Assembly (NCBI GenBank): GCA_017962365.1 | Contig: JAGCVL010000002.1 | Span: forward strand, 62,001-126,000 | Direction: 5' to 3' | Length of the DNA: 64,000 nucleotides | From: Candidatus Saccharimonadota bacterium | GTDB lineage: Bacteria > Patescibacteriota > Saccharimonadia > Saccharimonadales > Saccharimonadaceae | In this document: positions 4,249-42,738 of the stretch, piece by piece | Layout: the number at the start of each line of letters is the position of its first letter | How positions within the stretch are numbered: position 1 is the stretch's first letter | Notes under the pieces: model-generated | What the model saw: the letters and a program-made list of their open reading frames with translations, nothing else | What the model was told of the DNA's origin: nothing | Databases searched by the model: none | Position numbers and translations under genes: made by a program

Positions 4249-6666
4249 CTACACCACCAAATTCAAAAGTTTTGCCTTCGGTACAAAGATAGCCTTCCTC
4301 ACTCCACTCTCAACATATTTTTGCACCCGCTCATCTGCCAAGGCTAATTCTTTCACTTTTTCCTCATCCGTAGCATCATCAGCCGACATGCTCAATTTTG
4401 CACGTAACTTACCATTTATCTGTACCACCACCTCGACAACATCTTGCACGAGATACTTTTCGTCCCACTTTGGCCACTCGTCATCTGCACCTAATTTTTC
4501 CAACATTTCCGACGCAAGATGTGGCGCAAAAGGTTTCAAAAGTTTCGCTAATACCGCTAAATCTTCTTCCGTCACGCCAACTTTATAAAGCTCATTTACA
4601 TACTCCATCAACCCCGCCACCGCAGTATTAAACTGACACTTATAAATATCCGTCGTCACTTTCTTAATGGTTTTATTACGTATGATAGTATTTTTCTCCC
4701 GAGATGTAACCACCTCACCGAGTGGTATCCGCGACGATGTAAGCGTGTCGGTAGTGGCATTTTCGTCTTGGCGAAGGGGGGTACGGAGCGCGGCAGCGCG
4801 AGTATTAGCGCCGGCCGCCCGTGGCTTTCGTACGGCCGGACGCGCCCCCGAGCAAGATGAAAATGCCAGAGTCCAACATCTATTAAGGAATCTGTAGACG
4901 CCACCTACGCTTCGTGGGTCCCACGCTGCATCCATATCATACGGCCCAATAAACATTTCATAAGTCCTTAGAGTATCAGCCCCATAACCATCATTTATCA
5001 CATCTAGCGGGTCAATCACATTCCCCTTAGATTTACTCATCTTCTTGCCATCTGGCGCATTAATATAACCATTATAAAGCAACTTCTTCACCGGCTCCCT
5101 AAATGGCAAATATCCGAGATCCGCAAAGAATTTGCACCAAAATCTCACATAGAGTAAGTGCGCCACTGCATGATCGCCACCACAGTAAAAGTCCACCGGC
5201 TCCCAATATGAAACCGCCTCTGGGTCCCACGCCGCATCGACATCATGTGGCGAAGCGTATCGCCAAAGATACCACGACGAGCAAGCATACCCATCAAGCG
5301 TGTCAGTCTCCCGCGTCATCATTTCCATCTTGCCGGTCTTTTCGTTAAATACTTCAACTTTGAGCCAATCTTTTGCCTTCGCAAGCGCCGAACGCCCCGT
5401 CGAATCTGGTTGATAATCCTTCACCTCCGGAATCATCACCGGTAACTGATCCTCCGGAATCGGATGTGGGTCGCCCTCTGAATCATAGGCAATCGGAATT
5501 GGACAACCCCAATACCGCTGCCTAGAAATCAGCCAGTCACGCATCTTATACATCACCTTTGGTGTGCCATAAAGATCTCTATCAATCAGCTCCGCTTCCA
5601 CCACTGGCAAATCAAATTTCTCCGCAAATTCCCGGTCGCGCTCATCATATGCTGGCACCGCCATAATCGCCCCAGTACCGTAACCAGCAAGCACATAATC
5701 CGCTACATAAATCGGGATCTTCTCTTTTGTCGCTGGATTAATCGCATACACACCGGTAAATACGCCCGTTTTTTCCTTATTTTCTTGCCTTTCAATCTCA
5801 GACTTCTTCAATGCATCAGCCTTATATTTCATCACAGCATCTCTAGCGTCGTCGCTCACGATAAATTCAAGCCCAACATACTCTGGCGCCACTACTAAGA
5901 ACGTCGCGCCCATAATCGTATCCGGCCGAGTTGTGAAGACCGTAATCTTTCCACCTTGAGCAAGCGCAAAGTCAATCTCCGCCCCCACACTCCGTCCAAT
6001 CCAATTTCTTTGCATGGTTTTAATTTTCTCAGGCCATTCCAAACCATCAATGTCAGCAAGTAACTCATCTGCATATTCTGTAATCTTAAAGAACCACTGC
6101 TTCATTTTTTTCTTTTCAACTTCATGTCCACACCGCCAGCAGCAGCCATTTTCCACCTGCTCATTTGCGAGCACCGTCTGGTCCACTGGGCACCACCACT
6201 GGTAAGACTCTTTCTGATACGCTAAACCTTTTTTATAAAGTTGCAAAAAGCACCACTGCGTCCACCGATAATACTCAGGATCAGAAGTATTGATCTCACG
6301 CGACCAGTCAACCGCATAGCCTAGTCGCTTTGCCTGTTTCCGGAAATTCGCAATGTTTACCTTCGTCACCTCTTGTGGTGCCTGTCCGGTCTTGATAGCA
6401 TAATTTTCCGCAGGAAGTCCAAAAGTATCATAGCCAAACGGCCGCATTACATTAAAACCCTGCTGTCGATAAAATCGCGCCAGCACATCCACAATCGTGA
6501 AGTTTCTCACATGACCCACGTGAAGCCCCGCCCCAGATGGATACGGAAACATCTCAGCAAGCATCATCTTTGGCACGCCAGGCTCCTCAGTCGCCCGAAA
6601 CGCCCCAGTCTCATCCCATATTTTTTGCCATTTTGCTTCAATTTTCAGTGGTTCATATCTATCCAT
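4249..6666 (-). CDS. leuS: Leucyl-tRNA synthetase with in-frame palindromic insert
   Basis: Class I synthetase charging tRNA-Leu. The HIGH equivalent HVGH is near residue 49; the zinc-like CWRCGH region, the CP1 editing domain (TTRPDTIMGATF near 245; GTGAIMAVPAYDERD near 330) and KKMSKSKGN near 570 are all present. After RFLNRCWT, at about residues 600-637, there is a stretch rich in Arg/Ala/Pro (PRAAGA, RAAALR) encoded by a GC-rich palindrome also found in pheT. It falls between the catalytic core and the anticodon-binding helices, where a surface loop could tolerate it. The rest of the frame is intact, so the enzyme is probably functional. Confidence 0.96.
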   Translation of the reverse strand: MDRYEPLKIEAKWQKIWDETGAFRATEEPGVPKMMLAEMFPYPSGAGLHVGHVRNFTIVDVLARFYRQQGFNVMRPFGYDTFGLPAENYAIKTGQAPQEVTKVNIANFRKQAKRLGYAVDWSREINTSDPEYYRWTQWCFLQLYKKGLAYQKESYQWWCPVDQTVLANEQVENGCCWRCGHEVEKKKMKQWFFKITEYADELLADIDGLEWPEKIKTMQRNWIGRSVGAEIDFALAQGGKITVFTTRPDTIMGATFLVVAPEYVGLEFIVSDDARDAVMKYKADALKKSEIERQENKEKTGVFTGVYAINPATKEKIPIYVADYVLAGYGTGAIMAVPAYDERDREFAEKFDLPVVEAELIDRDLYGTPKVMYKMRDWLISRQRYWGCPIPIAYDSEGDPHPIPEDQLPVMIPEVKDYQPDSTGRSALAKAKDWLKVEVFNEKTGKMEMMTRETDTLDGYACSSWYLWRYASPHDVDAAWDPEAVSYWEPVDFYCGGDHAVAHLLYVRFWCKFFADLGYLPFREPVKKLLYNGYINAPDGKKMSKSKGNVIDPLDVINDGYGADTLRTYEMFIGPYDMDAAWDPRSVGGVYRFLNRCWTLAFSSCSGARPAVRKPRAAGANTRAAALRTPLRQDENATTDTLTSSRIPLGEVVTSREKNTIIRNKTIKKVTTDIYKCQFNTAVAGLMEYVNELYKVGVTEEDLAVLAKLLKPFAPHLASEMLEKLGADDEWPKWDEKYLVQDVVEVVVQINGKLRAKLSMSADDATDEEKVKELALADERVQKYVESGVRKAIFVPKAKLLNLVV
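4755..4868. repeat. In-frame palindromic element, core type A, in leuS
   Basis: GC-rich nested inverted repeat of about 114 bp inside leuS. Outer arms pair as TGGCATTTTCGTCTTG (4755-4770) with the complement at 4853-4868, one mismatch. The core, 4783 to about 4851, is about 85% identical to that in pheT and holds an inner hairpin (GCGCCGGCCG against CGGCCGGACGC). Translation adds roughly 38 residues in the same frame as the pheT copy. Rickettsia palindromic elements are the closest known analogy. Confidence 0.85.
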
Positions 6667-12113: not shown

Positions 12114-12119
12114 ATTATA
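12114..12119 (-). promoter_or_regulatory. Leaderless-type promoter of ftsEX
   Basis: TGT-TATAAT with 7 nt to the ftsE ATG. The box overlaps the pheT stop codon. Confidence 0.55.
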
Positions 12120-14571
12120 ACATAACCATTTCAACATGGAAAGTTATATTCTTCTCGTGCACCCCATCCGCTTGATAAATCGAAACTGGCGTAATTTTTG
12201 CATTTGGGTATTTTAGCCTCATTTCAGCTAGCACTTCTGCGTAATCCTTATCGGTCGTCACGGTTTCATCGAGCCTTGACGGTGTCTCGAAAGCACCGCT
12301 CACCTTCTTCGCACCGCGAAGCTCTAGTACTGACTCCATGTCAATTTCAAACCCAGCCAAATACTCAGCCAGCTTAAAATTCCGTCGCACTGAATTTTTA
12401 AATTCACCAACCACACCGATTCGAGTTTCACCTACCCAAATTTCCGCCGCACGCTTTTTCTCAAACGGAAGCGACATTGCATCGTCTGTCTTAATCGGCA
12501 AAAACCTAGGCGCTATATTAAAATACTCCAACATCTTTTCCGCGTAAAACTTAGCCTTGTAGTATGCCGCACCCACGCCTTTTCGTTCTACCACCACAAA
12601 ACCCATTCGCATTTTCTCAGTCGGCACATCCTCATCATTCATCCCCCATTCTTTCTGGTAAACTTTGTTCATTTCATAAAGCGCAAACTTATCAAAAGGA
12701 ATCTTTTGATTCATGTAAGCCTTTTCAAGCAAACTTGGCACAATCGACTGTCTTACGTATTGCAACTCTGGCGAAATTGAATTCACAATCTTGTACGAAT
12801 TGCTAGACTCAAGCCCCGCCTTCTTCAAAAGCCTCTCGCTCACGAAGCTATAGGTAAGGATCTCATTTGCACCAAATGTTTTCATCAAGTTACGGATATC
12901 GGTCTTTAACCCAAACATTGCATTCGGAGTTGCTGTCGCATGTCGCGGCAAAACTGGTTCGATATTATCGTAGCCAAGTAGTCTCCCAATCTCCTCAACG
13001 ATATCTTCTTTGATATGAATATCCGTCCGCCACGCCGGTGCCGCCACGATGATTTCTTCACATTTGCACTTTGATCGCTTTCCGCAGTCACAGGAAATTT
13101 CAAACCCTACATTTTCAAGCGTCCTCGCAATCTCCTCATAACTATATTCAGTGCCAAGAAGCGTATTGATATAGTCTGCACTTATCCTCACCGTGTTTAA
13201 TTTCTCTGGTTGCGGATATTCATCAACCACCGCCACCACTTGGAATCCATCATCGAGCATCCCAGCACATTCTTCCGCTACAGTTAGCGTCTGATATGGC
13301 GGTTGCCCCTTAGTAAATCTCGTAATCGCTTCCGAGAAAATTCCATGCGCCATCTGTGTCTTCCTGAGATTATACAAAGAAAATGTCGCCGACTCGATAA
13401 TAATATTCCGAGTGTTTTCATCAATTGCCGTCGAAGCTCCACCCATCGCACCAGCCAGCGCTACTGGCACTTCGCCACTACAAATTACAATATCATTTTC
13501 ATTTAGCTCAATTTCTTTACCATCGAGCAATACCAGCTTCTCACCTACTCGCGCCAATCTCACTATAATCTCTGGTTTTTCTTCGCCACCAACCGCCACA
13601 AATTTATCATAATCAAATGCATGTAGTGGCTGCCCGGTTAAGAGCATCAAATAATTCGTCGCATCCACAATCGGATCTACCGGTCGCATTCCAGATTTTG
13701 AAAGCATCGTATCCATCCAGGTGAGATATTTTTTCTTCATCTCCCCATGCTTTTCCATCACCACCGCCGTATATCGCTTGCAGATATCGGGTTTAAGAAT
13801 GTTAATATTCATTGAAGACGGGGTGGCCGAAAAAGGCCTTTCGAAGGGCCTCCGGAGCGCGGCAGCGCGAGGATAAGCGCCGGCCGCCCGTGGCGACGGG
13901 CCGGCCGGACGCAGCCCGAGAAAAGCCTTTTCGGACAGGACCCCATCTTCGACGAATCCCTCTCCGAGTATTCCTGCCACCTCACGTGCAAATCCAATTA
14001 GCCCAAAACAATCCGGCCGATGAGTAAGTGACTTATTTTCAATCTCAAGAATCAAATCGTTTAAATCAAACACATCCGCCAGTAAATCTCCGGCCACGGC
14101 CTCATCCGGATTAATTTCCACAATCCCCGAATGATCATCACCAAAATCCAGCTCATCCGCACCAGCAAGCATACCGTTCGACTCATACTTACCAAGCATT
14201 TTGCGCTTGCCAATTACAAACGGCGCATCTTCATGCACAGAAGCTGGCACTATAGCACCTGGCGCAATCCAAACCGCAAACATCCCCTCTCGTACATTTG
14301 GTGCCCCACATACTACTTGCACTAATCCATTTTCATTTTTCTCGACTTTAGGTACCTCTACATTACCAACATCAATCTGGCACAAAGTCAGATGTGTGTC
14401 CGGGATCTTCTCCGCCATCACTACTTTTACTACATAAATCTTGTCATACTTATGCGTTTCATCAATTACCCCCTCGACTTCTACCAGCCGTGCACCAATA
14501 AGCCGGATCAGCTCCTCATCAGAAACCGGAATCTCAACATATTTTTTAAGCCAATTTAATGATATTTTCAT
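12115..14571 (-). CDS. pheT: Phenylalanyl-tRNA synthetase beta subunit with in-frame palindromic insert
   Basis: Beta chain of the heterotetrameric PheRS. In order: the N-terminal and EMAP-like tRNA-binding domain (about 1-150; VVCGAPNVREGM), B3/B4 editing region (about 205-420), B5 domain, catalytic-like core, and the C-terminal ferredoxin-like anticodon domain (last 90 residues, ending near FHVEMVML). Residues about 207-253, between the EMAP region and B3, come from a GC-rich palindrome related to the one in leuS (shared PRAAGA and RAAALR). The stretch GKRSKCKCEE is a local Cys-rich insert near 500. pheT starts 1 bp after the pheS stop, so they form one operon. Confidence 0.96.
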   Translation of the reverse strand: MKISLNWLKKYVEIPVSDEELIRLIGARLVEVEGVIDETHKYDKIYVVKVVMAEKIPDTHLTLCQIDVGNVEVPKVEKNENGLVQVVCGAPNVREGMFAVWIAPGAIVPASVHEDAPFVIGKRKMLGKYESNGMLAGADELDFGDDHSGIVEINPDEAVAGDLLADVFDLNDLILEIENKSLTHRPDCFGLIGFAREVAGILGEGFVEDGVLSEKAFLGLRPAGPSPRAAGAYPRAAALRRPFERPFSATPSSMNINILKPDICKRYTAVVMEKHGEMKKKYLTWMDTMLSKSGMRPVDPIVDATNYLMLLTGQPLHAFDYDKFVAVGGEEKPEIIVRLARVGEKLVLLDGKEIELNENDIVICSGEVPVALAGAMGGASTAIDENTRNIIIESATFSLYNLRKTQMAHGIFSEAITRFTKGQPPYQTLTVAEECAGMLDDGFQVVAVVDEYPQPEKLNTVRISADYINTLLGTEYSYEEIARTLENVGFEISCDCGKRSKCKCEEIIVAAPAWRTDIHIKEDIVEEIGRLLGYDNIEPVLPRHATATPNAMFGLKTDIRNLMKTFGANEILTYSFVSERLLKKAGLESSNSYKIVNSISPELQYVRQSIVPSLLEKAYMNQKIPFDKFALYEMNKVYQKEWGMNDEDVPTEKMRMGFVVVERKGVGAAYYKAKFYAEKMLEYFNIAPRFLPIKTDDAMSLPFEKKRAAEIWVGETRIGVVGEFKNSVRRNFKLAEYLAGFEIDMESVLELRGAKKVSGAFETPSRLDETVTTDKDYAEVLAEMRLKYPNAKITPVSIYQADGVHEKNITFHVEMVML
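13814..13950. repeat. In-frame palindromic element, core type A, in pheT
   Basis: Nested inverted repeat of about 137 bp. Outer arms pair GAAGACGGGG (13814-13823) onward with the complement ending at 13950, over about 38 bp with mismatches. The core (about 13852-13920) closely matches leuS 4783-4851 and has the same inner hairpin (GCGCCGGCC/GGCCGGACGC). It adds about 46 residues in frame. The outer arms do not resemble the leuS arms. Confidence 0.85.
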
Positions 14572-27211: not shown

Positions 27212-27285
27212 TATATTTTCCCTCCTTGACGCAGCAGGTACAAGGCCTTTTTCGCCTCACCCACATTCAAAAAGCCTACATTCCC

Positions 27286-27314
27286 ATTATATCACACTTA
27301 AGCTATTCTGTCAA
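27286..27314 (-). promoter_or_regulatory. Consensus promoter of the 139-residue membrane protein gene
   Basis: TTGACA-17-TATAAT with TGA extended -10 on the minus strand: every element matches consensus. The leader is about 65-70 nt. Confidence 0.85.
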
Positions 27315-27347
27315 GACCAAGGCTGGGCCGAGACCAAAGTCAAAGCC

Positions 27348-30085: not shown

Positions 30086-30112
30086 ATCTTCCTTTACTTT
30101 AATATCTCCACC

Positions 30113-30141
30113 ATTATATCACATTTTGCCAGTAGATACAA
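30113..30141 (-). promoter_or_regulatory. Promoter of rplF-rplR-rpsE-rplO
   Basis: TTGTAT-17-TATAAT with TGA extended -10, between the adhesin stop and rplF. Confidence 0.75.
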
Positions 30142-30164
30142 GCCTAAACCCACCAAAACCTTCC

Positions 30165-33098
30165 CTAGGCCTTCTTAGCCGTAACCTCTTTACTCTTCAC
30201 TACTACCGCAGAAAAGAACACAATCACCGCCATAAATACAACTGCCGCCAACATTACTATACTATTTTCAACTGCAGCTTCACCACTTTTGGCGATTTTT
30301 ACACCTGTGTTTGGAGACAATATCTGATTATTGTCTAAACCGCCTTTACCGCCCTCATCATCCGCTATTGGGGCAATAGGATCATCGTCAGCAGCAGTCT
30401 CTGGATCCTCTGGCTCTTCCGGCTCTTCTGGTTCTTCCGGTTCTTCTGGCTCTTCCGGCCCCTCTGGCTCCTCTGGGGTATCAGAAGTATGACGATATGT
30501 AATCACAAAACCATTTTCCATATTGCCACTGATGGTTCTCGAATACTCAGCGGGTACCACATCTTGTGTAACTCCATAAATGATCTCGCTACCAGATTGA
30601 TTAACAAACAAATCTTCGAACATTACGCACCATGCACCACAAGCCCCGTCACCATTTTCATCAACGACTAGTTTCTTACCAGATTTGGCGCCATTTTCGG
30701 TCAACTCAGCCTCAATATCGGCTGGACGATGCCCATCGCTATTGTCATCATCATCCCAAACAATCCTCACCTCAATATCGCGAACATCTGGCGTATGTGT
30801 ATTTTCTACATCCAAATTACTACTATTGTTAGTAATCGTAAGATATCCTTCTGGAATGATACTTGTATATTTATCATAAAATAGGCTCATATCTTCCCGT
30901 ACTTCATATTGGATTTCCACACCCTTATTGGCATACTTTGGTAAATCATTAAACTCAATCAAAGCACTATCCCGAAGCCCAATCAAAGTCCCAAGACCAA
31001 TACCAAATTCATCATTGCATCTTTCCAGAATCGTATCACCATTCACCGATCCCTTCACGCAAAATCTCACCGTAGTATTAACATTTCTCAAACCATCTCT
31101 ATTATTATCGTCGTTCCACGTTTTGTTAATCGCAATGTTAATGGTCTCTGGGGTATGAGTATTGATGAAAACATTACCTTCTCTACTCATTGTATATTTG
31201 CTCGCTTCATTGCTTGCCAATGCTTCGCAAGTATTAACACCACCAACAGTCTGGCAGTTAATCATTTCTTCAACCGCATATTGAATTTCCGCATTGTTGA
31301 ACCATCTTGGGAAGCTAAAATGATATTCTTTTCTATCAACTTCCTTATCAATCAGCTGGAACCCAACAATTGTACCGTCATCATTTTTAACAGCAAAATA
31401 GAAATCCTCTCGTACTCCATCTTGGTCGCCCGCATCATCCCAAACTTTCACCACGTCAAGATTTACCACATCATAAGTATTTGTCACCACGATGTTAATA
31501 TCGCTGGTTTGACCCTGAGCAATACTAAATCTACCGGCACCATCCGCACCATTGATCTCATACTCTTTCAAATAATTAGCAATCGCCACATCGTTGTTAA
31601 TTGTTCCAACCTCCGAAATAGCATAATTGCCAGCCGGAAATGCTTTTACAATATTTTTAGTCTCCCCATCCTTAATGGCGATAGTTTCTCTAAAATCATC
31701 CGGCCCAGTCAAAACCATATTAAACTTTGCATCTGCATTGGTTGCGCCTACTAATTTCTTCCCAACCTTAATCGCTATTAGCTTTGATACTGCCGGAGTT
31801 GGAAATGTCCCGGTCTCAGTTTTACCGTCGTAGATATAGGTTAGCGTAGCTTCTTTATTCAATAGAAAATTGCCATATGAATCTAAAGTATTGGATACAT
31901 CGGAACTTGCTTCAACAATATAAGTTTCCTCCCAATAATAGCCTCCCCTACCGCCATACAGCGTTTCGTCTTCTGTGAAAGTAAGATTATTTATATTAAT
32001 TTCGGTAGCGTTGGTGCCAGAAACAACAATCGCATCACCCATGATGTCTTTAATCGAGGCAGAATTAATAGCGTTTTTGATTTCCCCTGCAATATCATTG
32101 AAGATTGTAGTCAAATTTACAGATGTGGCGGTATAATTCTTGCCAGGCGAGGCCATTTGATTCAAAACCTTGTTACCAACCGAATCTGAATCCATATCTA
32201 ATGCGATAGTATAAATGTTACCGCACGCTGAATTTTTCTTACAAAATCCAGCCTCAGCAATGGCTGAATTGCCATGATTATAATATTTTGGATTAATGGT
32301 GCCTCCGTATCTCCACCACATAATCTCTGCTGGATTCCAAAATCCAATACCCTGTTCGCCACCATCTCCTACACGCCTATTACTACCAGAATAAATATAC
32401 GCCGACTGTGGCACATTCGTGCTGGTTTCTCTTTCATTTCCGCTAAATAATCCAGATAAGAAAGTCTCTGGGCCGCCATTCACTAAGTAGTTATCTGGAT
32501 TATTAATCCTAAAACTGTACGATGGTTCACCATCAGAGAGAATTACGATATTCTTAATATTCGCATCAGATGCTATTAATAGATTAGCGGCCACATGCAT
32601 TGCATCTTGGGTAAACGTACCGCCATTTGCACGTATCCCGTTAATCTTTGTTTGAATTTTCCCATATTCAGTTTCCCACGTCACATTATTGTCTGCATAA
32701 TCTGAGAATGAAACTATCGCAACCCTATTTGTTGGATTGGCTGAATCATTGGCATCGAGCAATTGTCTAGCTAATTGGCTTGCAGCATTTTTCGCATTCG
32801 TCATACGAGAACCGGTGGTCATACTGCCGGATCTATCCAATACAATCACCGTATCGGAAGACAAAAGCGCCTTTGGAGCCTCAACTCGAAGCTTGATTCT
32901 CCATTGATTTATCATACCAGCCACCACCTCAGCAGTTTTGTACAGCCTCACATCCCCAGGCGCAACCGTCGCCTCAGTCGGATTGATAATCTGCTGACTA
33001 GCAGCACTTGCATTACGTACTACTCCCAGAGGCACAGTCGCCACCATCACTAAAACGGCCGCAAACACCATTTTATATCGATTGAATTTATTTTTCAT
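30165..33098 (-). CDS. Large surface adhesin: VWA domain, Cna-B repeats, LPxTG-like anchor
   Basis: 977-residue exported adhesin. Signal peptide about 1-33. The VWA domain (about 70-330) has the MIDAS start DRSGSM and a later DGEPS motif. A SpaA/prealbumin-like domain follows at about 440-545, then three Cna-B-like repeats starting near 553, 653 and 771, each with VWDD or TWND plus DG.R. A Pro-Glu-Glu repeat tract (about 870-897) forms a wall spanner. LSPNTG near 923, a membrane helix (about 938-962) and a Lys tail resemble a sortase signal. It sits between rpsH and rplF, inside what is normally the spc operon, with its own promoter. AAGGAAGG precedes the ATG. Confidence 0.88.
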   Translation of the reverse strand: MKNKFNRYKMVFAAVLVMVATVPLGVVRNASAASQQIINPTEATVAPGDVRLYKTAEVVAGMINQWRIKLRVEAPKALLSSDTVIVLDRSGSMTTGSRMTNAKNAASQLARQLLDANDSANPTNRVAIVSFSDYADNNVTWETEYGKIQTKINGIRANGGTFTQDAMHVAANLLIASDANIKNIVILSDGEPSYSFRINNPDNYLVNGGPETFLSGLFSGNERETSTNVPQSAYIYSGSNRRVGDGGEQGIGFWNPAEIMWWRYGGTINPKYYNHGNSAIAEAGFCKKNSACGNIYTIALDMDSDSVGNKVLNQMASPGKNYTATSVNLTTIFNDIAGEIKNAINSASIKDIMGDAIVVSGTNATEININNLTFTEDETLYGGRGGYYWEETYIVEASSDVSNTLDSYGNFLLNKEATLTYIYDGKTETGTFPTPAVSKLIAIKVGKKLVGATNADAKFNMVLTGPDDFRETIAIKDGETKNIVKAFPAGNYAISEVGTINNDVAIANYLKEYEINGADGAGRFSIAQGQTSDINIVVTNTYDVVNLDVVKVWDDAGDQDGVREDFYFAVKNDDGTIVGFQLIDKEVDRKEYHFSFPRWFNNAEIQYAVEEMINCQTVGGVNTCEALASNEASKYTMSREGNVFINTHTPETINIAINKTWNDDNNRDGLRNVNTTVRFCVKGSVNGDTILERCNDEFGIGLGTLIGLRDSALIEFNDLPKYANKGVEIQYEVREDMSLFYDKYTSIIPEGYLTITNNSSNLDVENTHTPDVRDIEVRIVWDDDDNSDGHRPADIEAELTENGAKSGKKLVVDENGDGACGAWCVMFEDLFVNQSGSEIIYGVTQDVVPAEYSRTISGNMENGFVITYRHTSDTPEEPEGPEEPEEPEEPEEPEEPEDPETAADDDPIAPIADDEGGKGGLDNNQILSPNTGVKIAKSGEAAVENSIVMLAAVVFMAVIVFFSAVVVKSKEVTAKKA
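30408..30478 (-). repeat. Short tandem repeat encoding Pro-Glu-Glu
   Basis: Degenerate 9-bp repeat (GAAGAACCA type on the coding strand) encoding the wall-spanning PEE tract of the adhesin; repeat number may vary between strains. Confidence 0.75.
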
Positions 33099-33251: not shown

Positions 33252-33275
33252 GAAAAATAACCCGTCAAAGGGTTA
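33252..33275 (-). terminator. Intrinsic terminator after rpsH
   Basis: ATAACCC-tttga-GGGTTAT type hairpin followed by TTTTTCTTTTTT on the minus strand; ends the S10/spc transcript that begins at rplC. Confidence 0.8.
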
Positions 33276-33282
33276 TCTTTCC

Positions 33283-33311
33283 ATTATATCACAGATTTAA
33301 TAATCTGTCAA
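33283..33311 (-). promoter_or_regulatory. Consensus promoter directly upstream of a terminator
   Basis: TTGACA-17-TATAAT with TGA extended -10 immediately after the rpsH stop. Its predicted start lies at the 5' edge of the terminator hairpin at 33257-33275, so most transcripts from it should stop within about 30 nt. Confidence 0.65.
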
Positions 33312-39866: not shown

Positions 39867-40047
39867 TCTATTCCTTTCCTTTATATTTAACTCCTACCAC
39901 TAGATTTTCTAGTGACCTTACGCCCCTATAAGGCGCTCGTACCGTTTTGTCTCTGTACAACAGACAAAACGACACTATTAAAACTAGACTTTTAGGCTGG
40001 TTTCCGCCCGTGAAATAGCAGACCCGTCCTGATGTCTAGAACTAACC
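39867..40047 (-). promoter_or_regulatory. Structured 5' leader of the S10-like ribosomal operon
   Basis: The region between the consensus-like promoter and rplC holds several inverted repeats on the transcribed strand: TTCTAGAC (near 40035) with GTCTAGTT (near 39985), the hairpin CGTTTTGTCT/AGACAAAACG (39943-39971), GCGCCTTATAGGGGCGT, and CACTAGA/TCTAGTG just before the AAAGGAAAGG ribosome site. Such structure is expected for an autoregulated ribosomal leader, with uL4 or uL3 as candidate ligand by analogy to E. coli; no known Rfam class is recognised. Confidence 0.65.
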
Positions 40048-40052
40048 TTTCC

Positions 40053-40081
40053 ATTATATCACGAAAAACGTTTTTTTGCAA
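40053..40081 (-). promoter_or_regulatory. Promoter of the rplC-rpsH ribosomal operon
   Basis: TTGCAA-17-TATAAT with TGA extended -10 on the minus strand, just downstream of prfB. Confidence 0.8.
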
Positions 40082-41691: not shown

Positions 41692-42738
41692 ATGATTTGG
41701 GACGAGCTCAAAAAACCATTTCTTTGTCTTGCGCCGATGGAGGGCGTGACGGATATTATGTTCCGCCAGGTTGTCGCGCGTGCCGGCCGACCGGATTTAT
41801 TTTTCACGGAATTTACCAATGTATCGTCATACGCATCCGAAAAAGGCCGCGCAAACGCCCTCGAGCGCCTCGAAATCGCCCCGACCGACTCGCCTATCAT
41901 CGCCCAAATTTGGGGTAAAGACCCAGCCCACTTCGCAGAATGCGCCGCGGCGCTTGAGTCGCTCGGCTTTTCCGGCATAGATCTAAACTTTGGTTGCCCA
42001 GATAAAAATGTCAACAAAACCGGCGGTGGCGCCGCCATGATTAAAACCCCAGAGCTAGCTATAGAATGTTATCGTAACGCCCGCGCACATACTAACTTAC
42101 CAGTCTCTATCAAGACCCGCCTCGGCTGGTCAAAACCAGAAGAGTTTCGTACCTGGCTACCAGTTTTGCTTGCCGAGCATCCCGCAGCCCTCACCGTGCA
42201 TCTTCGCACCAAAAAAGAAATGAGCAAAGTCCCCGCCCACTACGAGTTAATCCCTGAAATCGTAAAAATGCGTGCCGAAATCTCACCAGAGACCAAGCTC
42301 ATCATTAATGGCGACATCAAAGACCGCACCCACGCTCTAGAATTGCACGCTGAATACCCAGAGGTCGACGGTTTTATGATCGGCCGCGGAGTTTTTGGAA
42401 ACCCATACTGCTTCACCGACCACACCCCAACCCAAGATGAGCTTATGGAACTTTTAAAGATGCACCTGAGGTTGTTTGAAGAATATGTGAATGGGTCTTT
42501 GAGGAACGTTTGCGACAACGGGAGCAATTTAGCGAGCGAACCCCGTGACGACGGGTGTGAGCGAAGCGGTTCCGAAAAGACCCGTTCATATATTCGTTCA
42601 TATGAGCCTCTGAAACATTTCTTTAAAATTTACGTCAACAATTTCCCTGGCGCCTCTTCTTTACGCGCCGCCTTGATGGAGACTCACTCCGTCAAAGAAG
42701 CTAGAGAGACTATACAAAACTTCCAAAAAATGTTATAA
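41692..42738 (+). CDS. dusB: tRNA-dihydrouridine synthase with palindromic insert
   Basis: FMN-dependent enzyme reducing uridine in tRNA D-loops. The TIM-barrel domain has the start CLAPMEGVTD (PMEGVTD), DLNFGCPDKNVNKTGGGAAM with the catalytic Cys, VSIKTRLGW, TVHLRTK and GDIKD/IGRGVFGNPY. The helical C-terminal domain is interrupted at about residues 262-303 by a palindrome-derived stretch rich in Asn/Ser/Arg (NGSNLASEPRDDG). The frame stays open on both sides. Assignment to the B subgroup is by general likeness only. Confidence 0.9.
   Translation: MIWDELKKPFLCLAPMEGVTDIMFRQVVARAGRPDLFFTEFTNVSSYASEKGRANALERLEIAPTDSPIIAQIWGKDPAHFAECAAALESLGFSGIDLNFGCPDKNVNKTGGGAAMIKTPELAIECYRNARAHTNLPVSIKTRLGWSKPEEFRTWLPVLLAEHPAALTVHLRTKKEMSKVPAHYELIPEIVKMRAEISPETKLIINGDIKDRTHALELHAEYPEVDGFMIGRGVFGNPYCFTDHTPTQDELMELLKMHLRLFEEYVNGSLRNVCDNGSNLASEPRDDGCERSGSEKTRSYIRSYEPLKHFFKIYVNNFPGASSLRAALMETHSVKEARETIQNFQKML
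42478..42599. repeat. In-frame palindromic element, core type B, in dusB
   Basis: Outer arms of about 30 bp pair: GAATATGTGAATGGGTCTTT (42481-42500) against the complement at about 42575-42595, with few mismatches. The core (about 42509-42566) with an inner ACGGG/CCCCGT hairpin differs from the leuS/pheT core. It adds about 41 residues in frame. Confidence 0.75.

Follow-up and report, generated by a model that had tools for sequence, protein, structure and literature searches.

A palindromic insert within dusB

The gene for a tRNA dihydrouridine synthase (dusB) in a Candidatus Saccharimonadota bacterium contains a long palindrome within its coding sequence, which raises the question of whether this sequence belongs to the native enzyme, how it could have come to be there and how it relates to the palindromes in the LeuRS and PheT genes nearby. 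All three genes lie in one window, by which we mean the whole stretch of 64,000 nucleotides that was analysed, itself part of a genome of 625 kb in 6 contigs. A preliminary description of the window, made from its letters alone, had proposed that the dusB palindrome is an in-frame insert, and this proved to be real. The gene is open in one frame throughout the element, and its product has a Dus domain. When the coding strand was folded as RNA, positions 42465-42620 reached -71.4 kcal/mol, far more stable than shuffles of the same sequence (-39.5 kcal/mol, sd 3.7; z = -8.7). In a long stem-loop scan of about 446 kb of the genome, the dusB stem-loop ranked fourth by score.

The coordinates of the features are collected in Table 1. 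The element does lie in the region first given for it (42478-42599), with a slightly narrower exact span. Its arms are inverted and locus-specific as described, but they extend over 20 bp on each side rather than 30 bp. An inner hairpin, originally given as ACGGG/CCCCGT, is present too, but the conserved pairing is CCCGT/ACGGG and does not involve the ACGGG near 42518.

Table 1 Features of the dusB element and of the related inserts in the window
Feature	Position	Strand	Remarks
dusB (tRNA dihydrouridine synthase), host gene	41692-42738	+	348 aa, insert included; Pfam PF01207, E 1.2e-51
Whole palindromic element of dusB	42481-42595	+	About residues 264-301; net gain ~31 aa relative to insert-free orthologs
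Left arm, 20 nt	42481-42500	+	Locus-specific; own-arm pairing 0.78-0.95 to pair 20, then 0.25
Core, 75 nt	42501-42575	+	B subtype; tandem G-A mismatches at its bounds (GA...GA)
Variable left hairpin of the core (TTGC...GCAA)	42510-42527	+	Subtype-dependent, from sequence and alignment of cores
Conserved hairpin CCCCGTGACGACGGG	42541-42555	+	Superfamily signature; stem CCCGT/ACGGG at 42542-42546 / 42551-42555
Right arm, 20 nt	42576-42595	+	Complementary to the left arm
LeuRS insert	4755-4868		A subtype; gene 4249-6666 (-); core partly degenerate; arms TGGCATTTTCGTCT/...GATGAAAATGCCA
PheT insert	13839-13931		A subtype; gene 12115-14571 (-); 61.8 bits

A dusB ortholog is present in 163 of 174 genomes of the same genus. 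Among 59 same-genus dusB loci that we read, 38 are without the insert and 21 (this one and those of 20 other species) carry one at the same loop. Most same-genus DusB orthologs match this protein only over residues 2-265 and ~296-343; in the alignment, the loop between these parts is short and variable in the empty orthologs and about 39 aa long here. The ortholog comparison thus yielded insert-free loops that are shorter by about 31 aa, rather than native loops of equal length, and this rules out the reading of the palindrome as a native DusB loop. AlphaFold2 gives residues 269-300 a pLDDT of ~35 and places them as a loop between two confident helices (pTM 0.81), which predicts that the insert is a disordered loop in an otherwise intact fold.

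The net gain in DusB corresponds roughly to the span of the element minus one arm. At the second insertion site of TsaD, the distance between the same motifs is 15 aa in the empty and 47 aa in the filled protein, a gain of 96 nt. Judged from these lengths, the balance in both proteins agrees with a 75-nt core to which a single new arm of 18-21 nt is added, a comparison that is limited to DusB and TsaD; supposed empty orthologs of the other families hold undetected inserts.

Across species, several kinds of core occupy the dusB loop. Those of G167 (L214:149-1258; core of 150 nt) and G061 (L217:147-1208; core of 108 nt) exceed the usual 75 nt, and their sequences look as if further segments, in multiples of 3, had been inserted within the core. 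In G175 (L233:125-1192) the same loop holds another long palindrome that is without the CCCGT/ACGGG hairpin. At L029, arms GAATATGAGAA/TTCTCATATTC flank a few bases; they are the arms found at L205, with no core between them, and the locus looks like the scar of a former insert.

The cores form one superfamily

The preliminary description had seen a common architecture in the dusB, LeuRS and PheT inserts, as we do, but had taken their cores to be unrelated. A covariance model built from 50 cores, all from other species, matches the dusB core at 42496-42586 (82.7 bits, E 9.8e-17) and the PheT core (61.8 bits), as well as that of TatD (41.8 bits) and, weakly, that of LeuRS (16.2 bits, E 0.3). 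Since a single model matches both dusB and PheT, unrelated cores are excluded, and the inserts are subtypes of one superfamily. This superfamily, with the pattern GCGAGCCCCGT-RRCG-ACGGG-MGCGAG, includes all three inserts of the window. The right hairpin is common to the subtypes and the left hairpin differs among them. Rfam models at gathering cut-offs matched three tRNAs only in the window and did not match the element.

The same design was found at many loci of this genome, using scans for long stems and for the core motif. The genome search for relatives that the preliminary description had proposed was carried out on stretches covering ~446 of the 625 kb, and gave 13 covariance matches with E < 1e-6; together with the degenerate LeuRS copy, which we accepted because it is near-identical to the TatD and TsaD copies, there are 14 clear copies. 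Elements occur in both orientations, and 163 were collected in total from all genomes, which are mostly metagenome assemblies. Of 15 genus genomes searched for the core motif with at most two mismatches, 14 contain it, at 2-29 copies each (reversed control, 0-4). When 84,980 species genomes were searched with a 23-base pattern, at least 119 stretches were found, and the matches listed are all from Candidatus Saccharibacteria, mostly of ruminant gut. Inverted repeats with exact seeds of 12 bases and long loops were also searched for, and none were listed.

Because detection needs the shared right hairpin, inserts with other cores are missed, as is the case for L233 and for the stems at L014 and L013. 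The latter two are long stems of the GGACGGGTGACGACC...GGTCGGCAGGACCCGTCC type with another core, at L014:5148-5348 (in a MurB-like gene) and at L013:19214-19347 (beside a MutM-like gene). They possibly represent a second, truly separate core family.

Cores change place while arms stay

The explanation that we consider likely is that these elements are multi-copy, clade-restricted palindromic DNA inserts of gut Saccharibacteria, in which a core of ~75 nt spreads and the arms, which belong to each locus, are kept matched by template switching. The structured core would spread among loci and would come to lie between inverted arms of ~12-20 bp particular to each of them.

Comparisons within and between genomes bear on the movement of the cores. 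In G000, the cores of LeuRS, TsaD and TatD are 88-92% identical and their arms are unrelated. The TsaD core of this genome is 92% identical to its TatD core and 89% to its LeuRS core, versus 66% to the TsaD core of G134, although the G134 and G000 TsaD elements occupy the same site and have similar arms. From these identities we conclude that cores move or are exchanged between loci while arms stay. A methyltransferase gene of G103 and G183 shows an inversion of the core in place: the flanks are colinear, and the core of one genome is 94% identical to the reverse complement of the other.

Alternatively, the distribution could be due mainly to flanks that recombine homologously between species. 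New loci would then arise very rarely, and cores would be swapped by gene conversion via the shared inner stem. Such transfer also happens: between G103 and G183, identity is complete for an MnmA-type insert with its close flanks and 83% in the sequence around them. The same sites are filled in many species, and a dusB region of ~1.7 kb is 96-97% identical between L210 (G103) and L209 (G183), where other compared regions are ~80-84% identical; its sequence suggests a recent transfer between these two species. Alone, however, flank recombination leaves near-identical cores at loci with unrelated arms unexplained. We consider it unlikely as the main process; it does not conflict with the explanation by a spreading core and template-switched arms, which partly includes it.

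We judge it rather more unlikely that the arms are part of a MITE- or REP-like unit mobilised by a transposase, whose old copies diverged with compensation and so only look locus-specific. Multi-copy palindromes in both orientations do resemble MITEs (PMC10969869), and the inner arms share a weak signature (TTY beside the core and many A at -10 to -13). However, the outer arms of the near-identical LeuRS, TsaD and TatD cores are unrelated within one genome, and copies this recent leave drift too little time to have made the arms diverge. REP/BIME sequences and MITEs resemble the present elements in being short palindromes that occur in many copies and carry no genes. REPs lie outside genes and depend on Y1 transposases, whereas the elements described here are nearly all intragenic and Y1 is nearly absent: a family search found the Y1 (HUH) transposase PF01797 in 3 of 100 genus genomes only, and none in G000. 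Reverse transcriptase (RVT_1) is more widespread (61 of 100 genus genomes) but was not found in the core-bearing genomes G003, G004, G018, G025 and G026. The counts in these 100 genomes thus support neither a Y1 transposase nor a reverse transcriptase (group II intron, retron, DGR) as the common mover. One such reverse transcriptase gene lies at G000:C1:47795-48382 (L269), with an open frame of 328 aa.

Arms are matched within each species

The arms of dusB elements from 20 species differ widely between species and are matched within each. Over pairs 5-18, the fraction of Watson-Crick pairs is 0.886 between own arms, compared with a mean of 46% for species-swapped arms and a best value of 0.646 in 5000 permutations. 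For single pairs (5-16) the values are 0.80-0.95 for own arms versus 0.34-0.59 for arms of mixed species, and the complementarity ends abruptly at pair 20. In 72 anchored elements the arm lengths have two peaks, at ~11-14 and 20-21 bp, with both classes found within several core subtypes.

Arms could be kept complementary by selection if the insert acted as a structured RNA at the mRNA level, for example as an attenuator, a regulatory hairpin or a feedback element of tRNA enzymes. The very stable fold is consistent with this, as are the mostly sense orientation of B cores, the strong bias of the hosts to tRNA enzymes and two-sided base-pair changes in core and arms, although the test on the CCCGT/ACGGG stem is biased by how loci were fetched. 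Selection on mRNA structure is expected to tolerate G-U more than A-C in the mRNA sense. Counted in the sense of the host mRNA, G-U and A-C number 10 versus 20 in dusB, 93 versus 102 in all elements and 31 versus 23 in a set with stricter arms, so that a G-U excess is not clear and the counts do not support selection on mRNA structure as what keeps the arms matched. Further, A cores face either way along the host gene, and opposite orientations are found at the same site; the dusB insert is missing in most species; and the elements are positioned deep within genes rather than in leaders. A regulatory or otherwise structured mRNA is thus improbable as an explanation. On the element's own strand there is an excess of G-T (37, versus 17 A-C), which leaves room for a favoured single-strand structure in that strand.

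Because the arms are matched per species and show no clear G-U excess when read as mRNA, template switching at the DNA level is a better fit than selection on mRNA structure. Template switching is known to homogenise the arms of inverted repeats and to flip the spacer between them (PMC8604942), and perfect stems are known to arise from it (PMC8794818). Both arm homogenisation and spacer inversion are seen here; the known cases of such quasipalindrome mutation differ in that they affect short inverted repeats that already exist (PMC8604942, PMC8794818), whereas here a dispersed core family is involved. Arms would arise when one flank is copied inverted, and the opposite arm would serve as template for correcting later mismatches; selection on mRNA structure would play no part. 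With one native arm and one inverted copy, such an origin would leave a length balance of about one arm, which the DusB and TsaD lengths fit. Empty and filled genes, including their flanks, are too diverged to tell a native arm from a copy (the closest empty/filled dusB pairs are ~79-80% identical), and no insertion was observed between near-identical strains.

A more specific form of this idea, which we offer tentatively, is a mobile element without a transposase. In it, the core alone would be copied, and the replication machinery would build the palindrome by inverted copying of ~12 or 20 bp of target DNA, giving locus-specific ends and a near-constant net addition of 93-96 nt, in frame.

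Hosts and translation of the inserts

The host genes in this genome encode LeuRS, PheT, DusB, ValRS, TsaD (with two inserts), ArgRS, RecX, TruB, a UPF0020 RNA-methyltransferase-like protein, GatA, a class-V aminotransferase (IscS-like), TatD and MnmA. Nine of these 13 are firm tRNA enzymes; the chance of at least nine is ~1e-5 under the assumption, which is unmeasured, that tRNA genes make up 15% of the coding length. Over all loci gathered, Val/IleRS, ArgRS and MnmA lead, with PolA, Der, UvrD and a cation ATPase also represented; we give no p-value for this tally, as the loci were collected by the core motif and orthologous copies were counted repeatedly. The bias of the hosts to tRNA enzymes is strong, and it is testable. 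The initial statement that all hosts are RNA-modifying or charging enzymes holds for the three hosts of the window, but not beyond it, as RecX, TatD, PolA, Der, UvrD and the cation ATPase show.

Most elements (148 of 163) lie within an open reading frame, with one open frame of at least 150 aa across the element. The frame used by the host tracks the core frames that are open; of the sense frames, the one open in just 26 of the 163 cores serves as host frame once. These open frames and the frame usage favour, indirectly, translation through the insert rather than its removal. The total span modulo 3 carried no information, the arm ends being fuzzy. The ribosome would read through the insert and add a disordered loop of ~31 aa that the enzyme would tolerate, so that copies may be kept where the loop is harmless. 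An intron-like or bypassed element, removed from the RNA or skipped by the ribosome with the arms joining its ends, would suit a stem that brings the insertion ends together and the choice of conserved enzymes as hosts, but it is highly improbable, as it has no need for the open in-frame sequence seen in 148 of 163 cases and the window holds no Rfam family at gathering cut-offs other than tRNAs.

Comparison with known palindromic inserts

To our knowledge, palindromic inserts that keep the frame of a protein gene have been described mainly in Rickettsia. Rickettsia palindromic elements (RPE) are palindromic repeats of ~100-150 nt that are inserted, within a reduced genome, into various unrelated protein genes without breaking the frame; the extra peptide is apparently tolerated, and they are described as encoding a conserved peptide (PMC10969869). 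The Saccharibacteria inserts are alike in being in-frame palindromes in unrelated protein genes. They differ from RPE, which we compared by description only, in their locus-specific arms, in their hosts, which are mainly tRNA enzymes, and in the phylum. A conserved peptide is not a feature of the Saccharibacteria inserts, whose peptides differ because several frames and both orientations are used. For this reason we do not class them as RPE; functionally, they resemble RPE.

The coding palindromes of Nematomorpha mitochondria are inverted repeats in translated conserved genes (PMC6649704). There, both arms encode conserved native protein, and the abstract describes no dispersed core (PMC6649704).

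Our literature search found no paper on such elements in Saccharibacteria, and the family is apparently undescribed. It offers many copies and species for comparison in a distant phylum. Its co-varying, locus-specific arms, without a G-U bias in the mRNA sense, offer a natural case in which to test how palindromes arise and persist when RNA is not under selection. They also caution that compensatory changes do not always prove an RNA to be functional.

Other repeats in the window

The motif CATTATATCACA (reverse complement TGTGATATAATG) recurs in intergenic spacers of the window, at 1584-1626, 27281-27323, 30108-30150, 33267-33311 and 40037-40081, and is probably an extended -10 promoter signal. 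A nine-base tandem repeat occupies positions 30391-30480, within a large gene on the minus strand (30165-33098).
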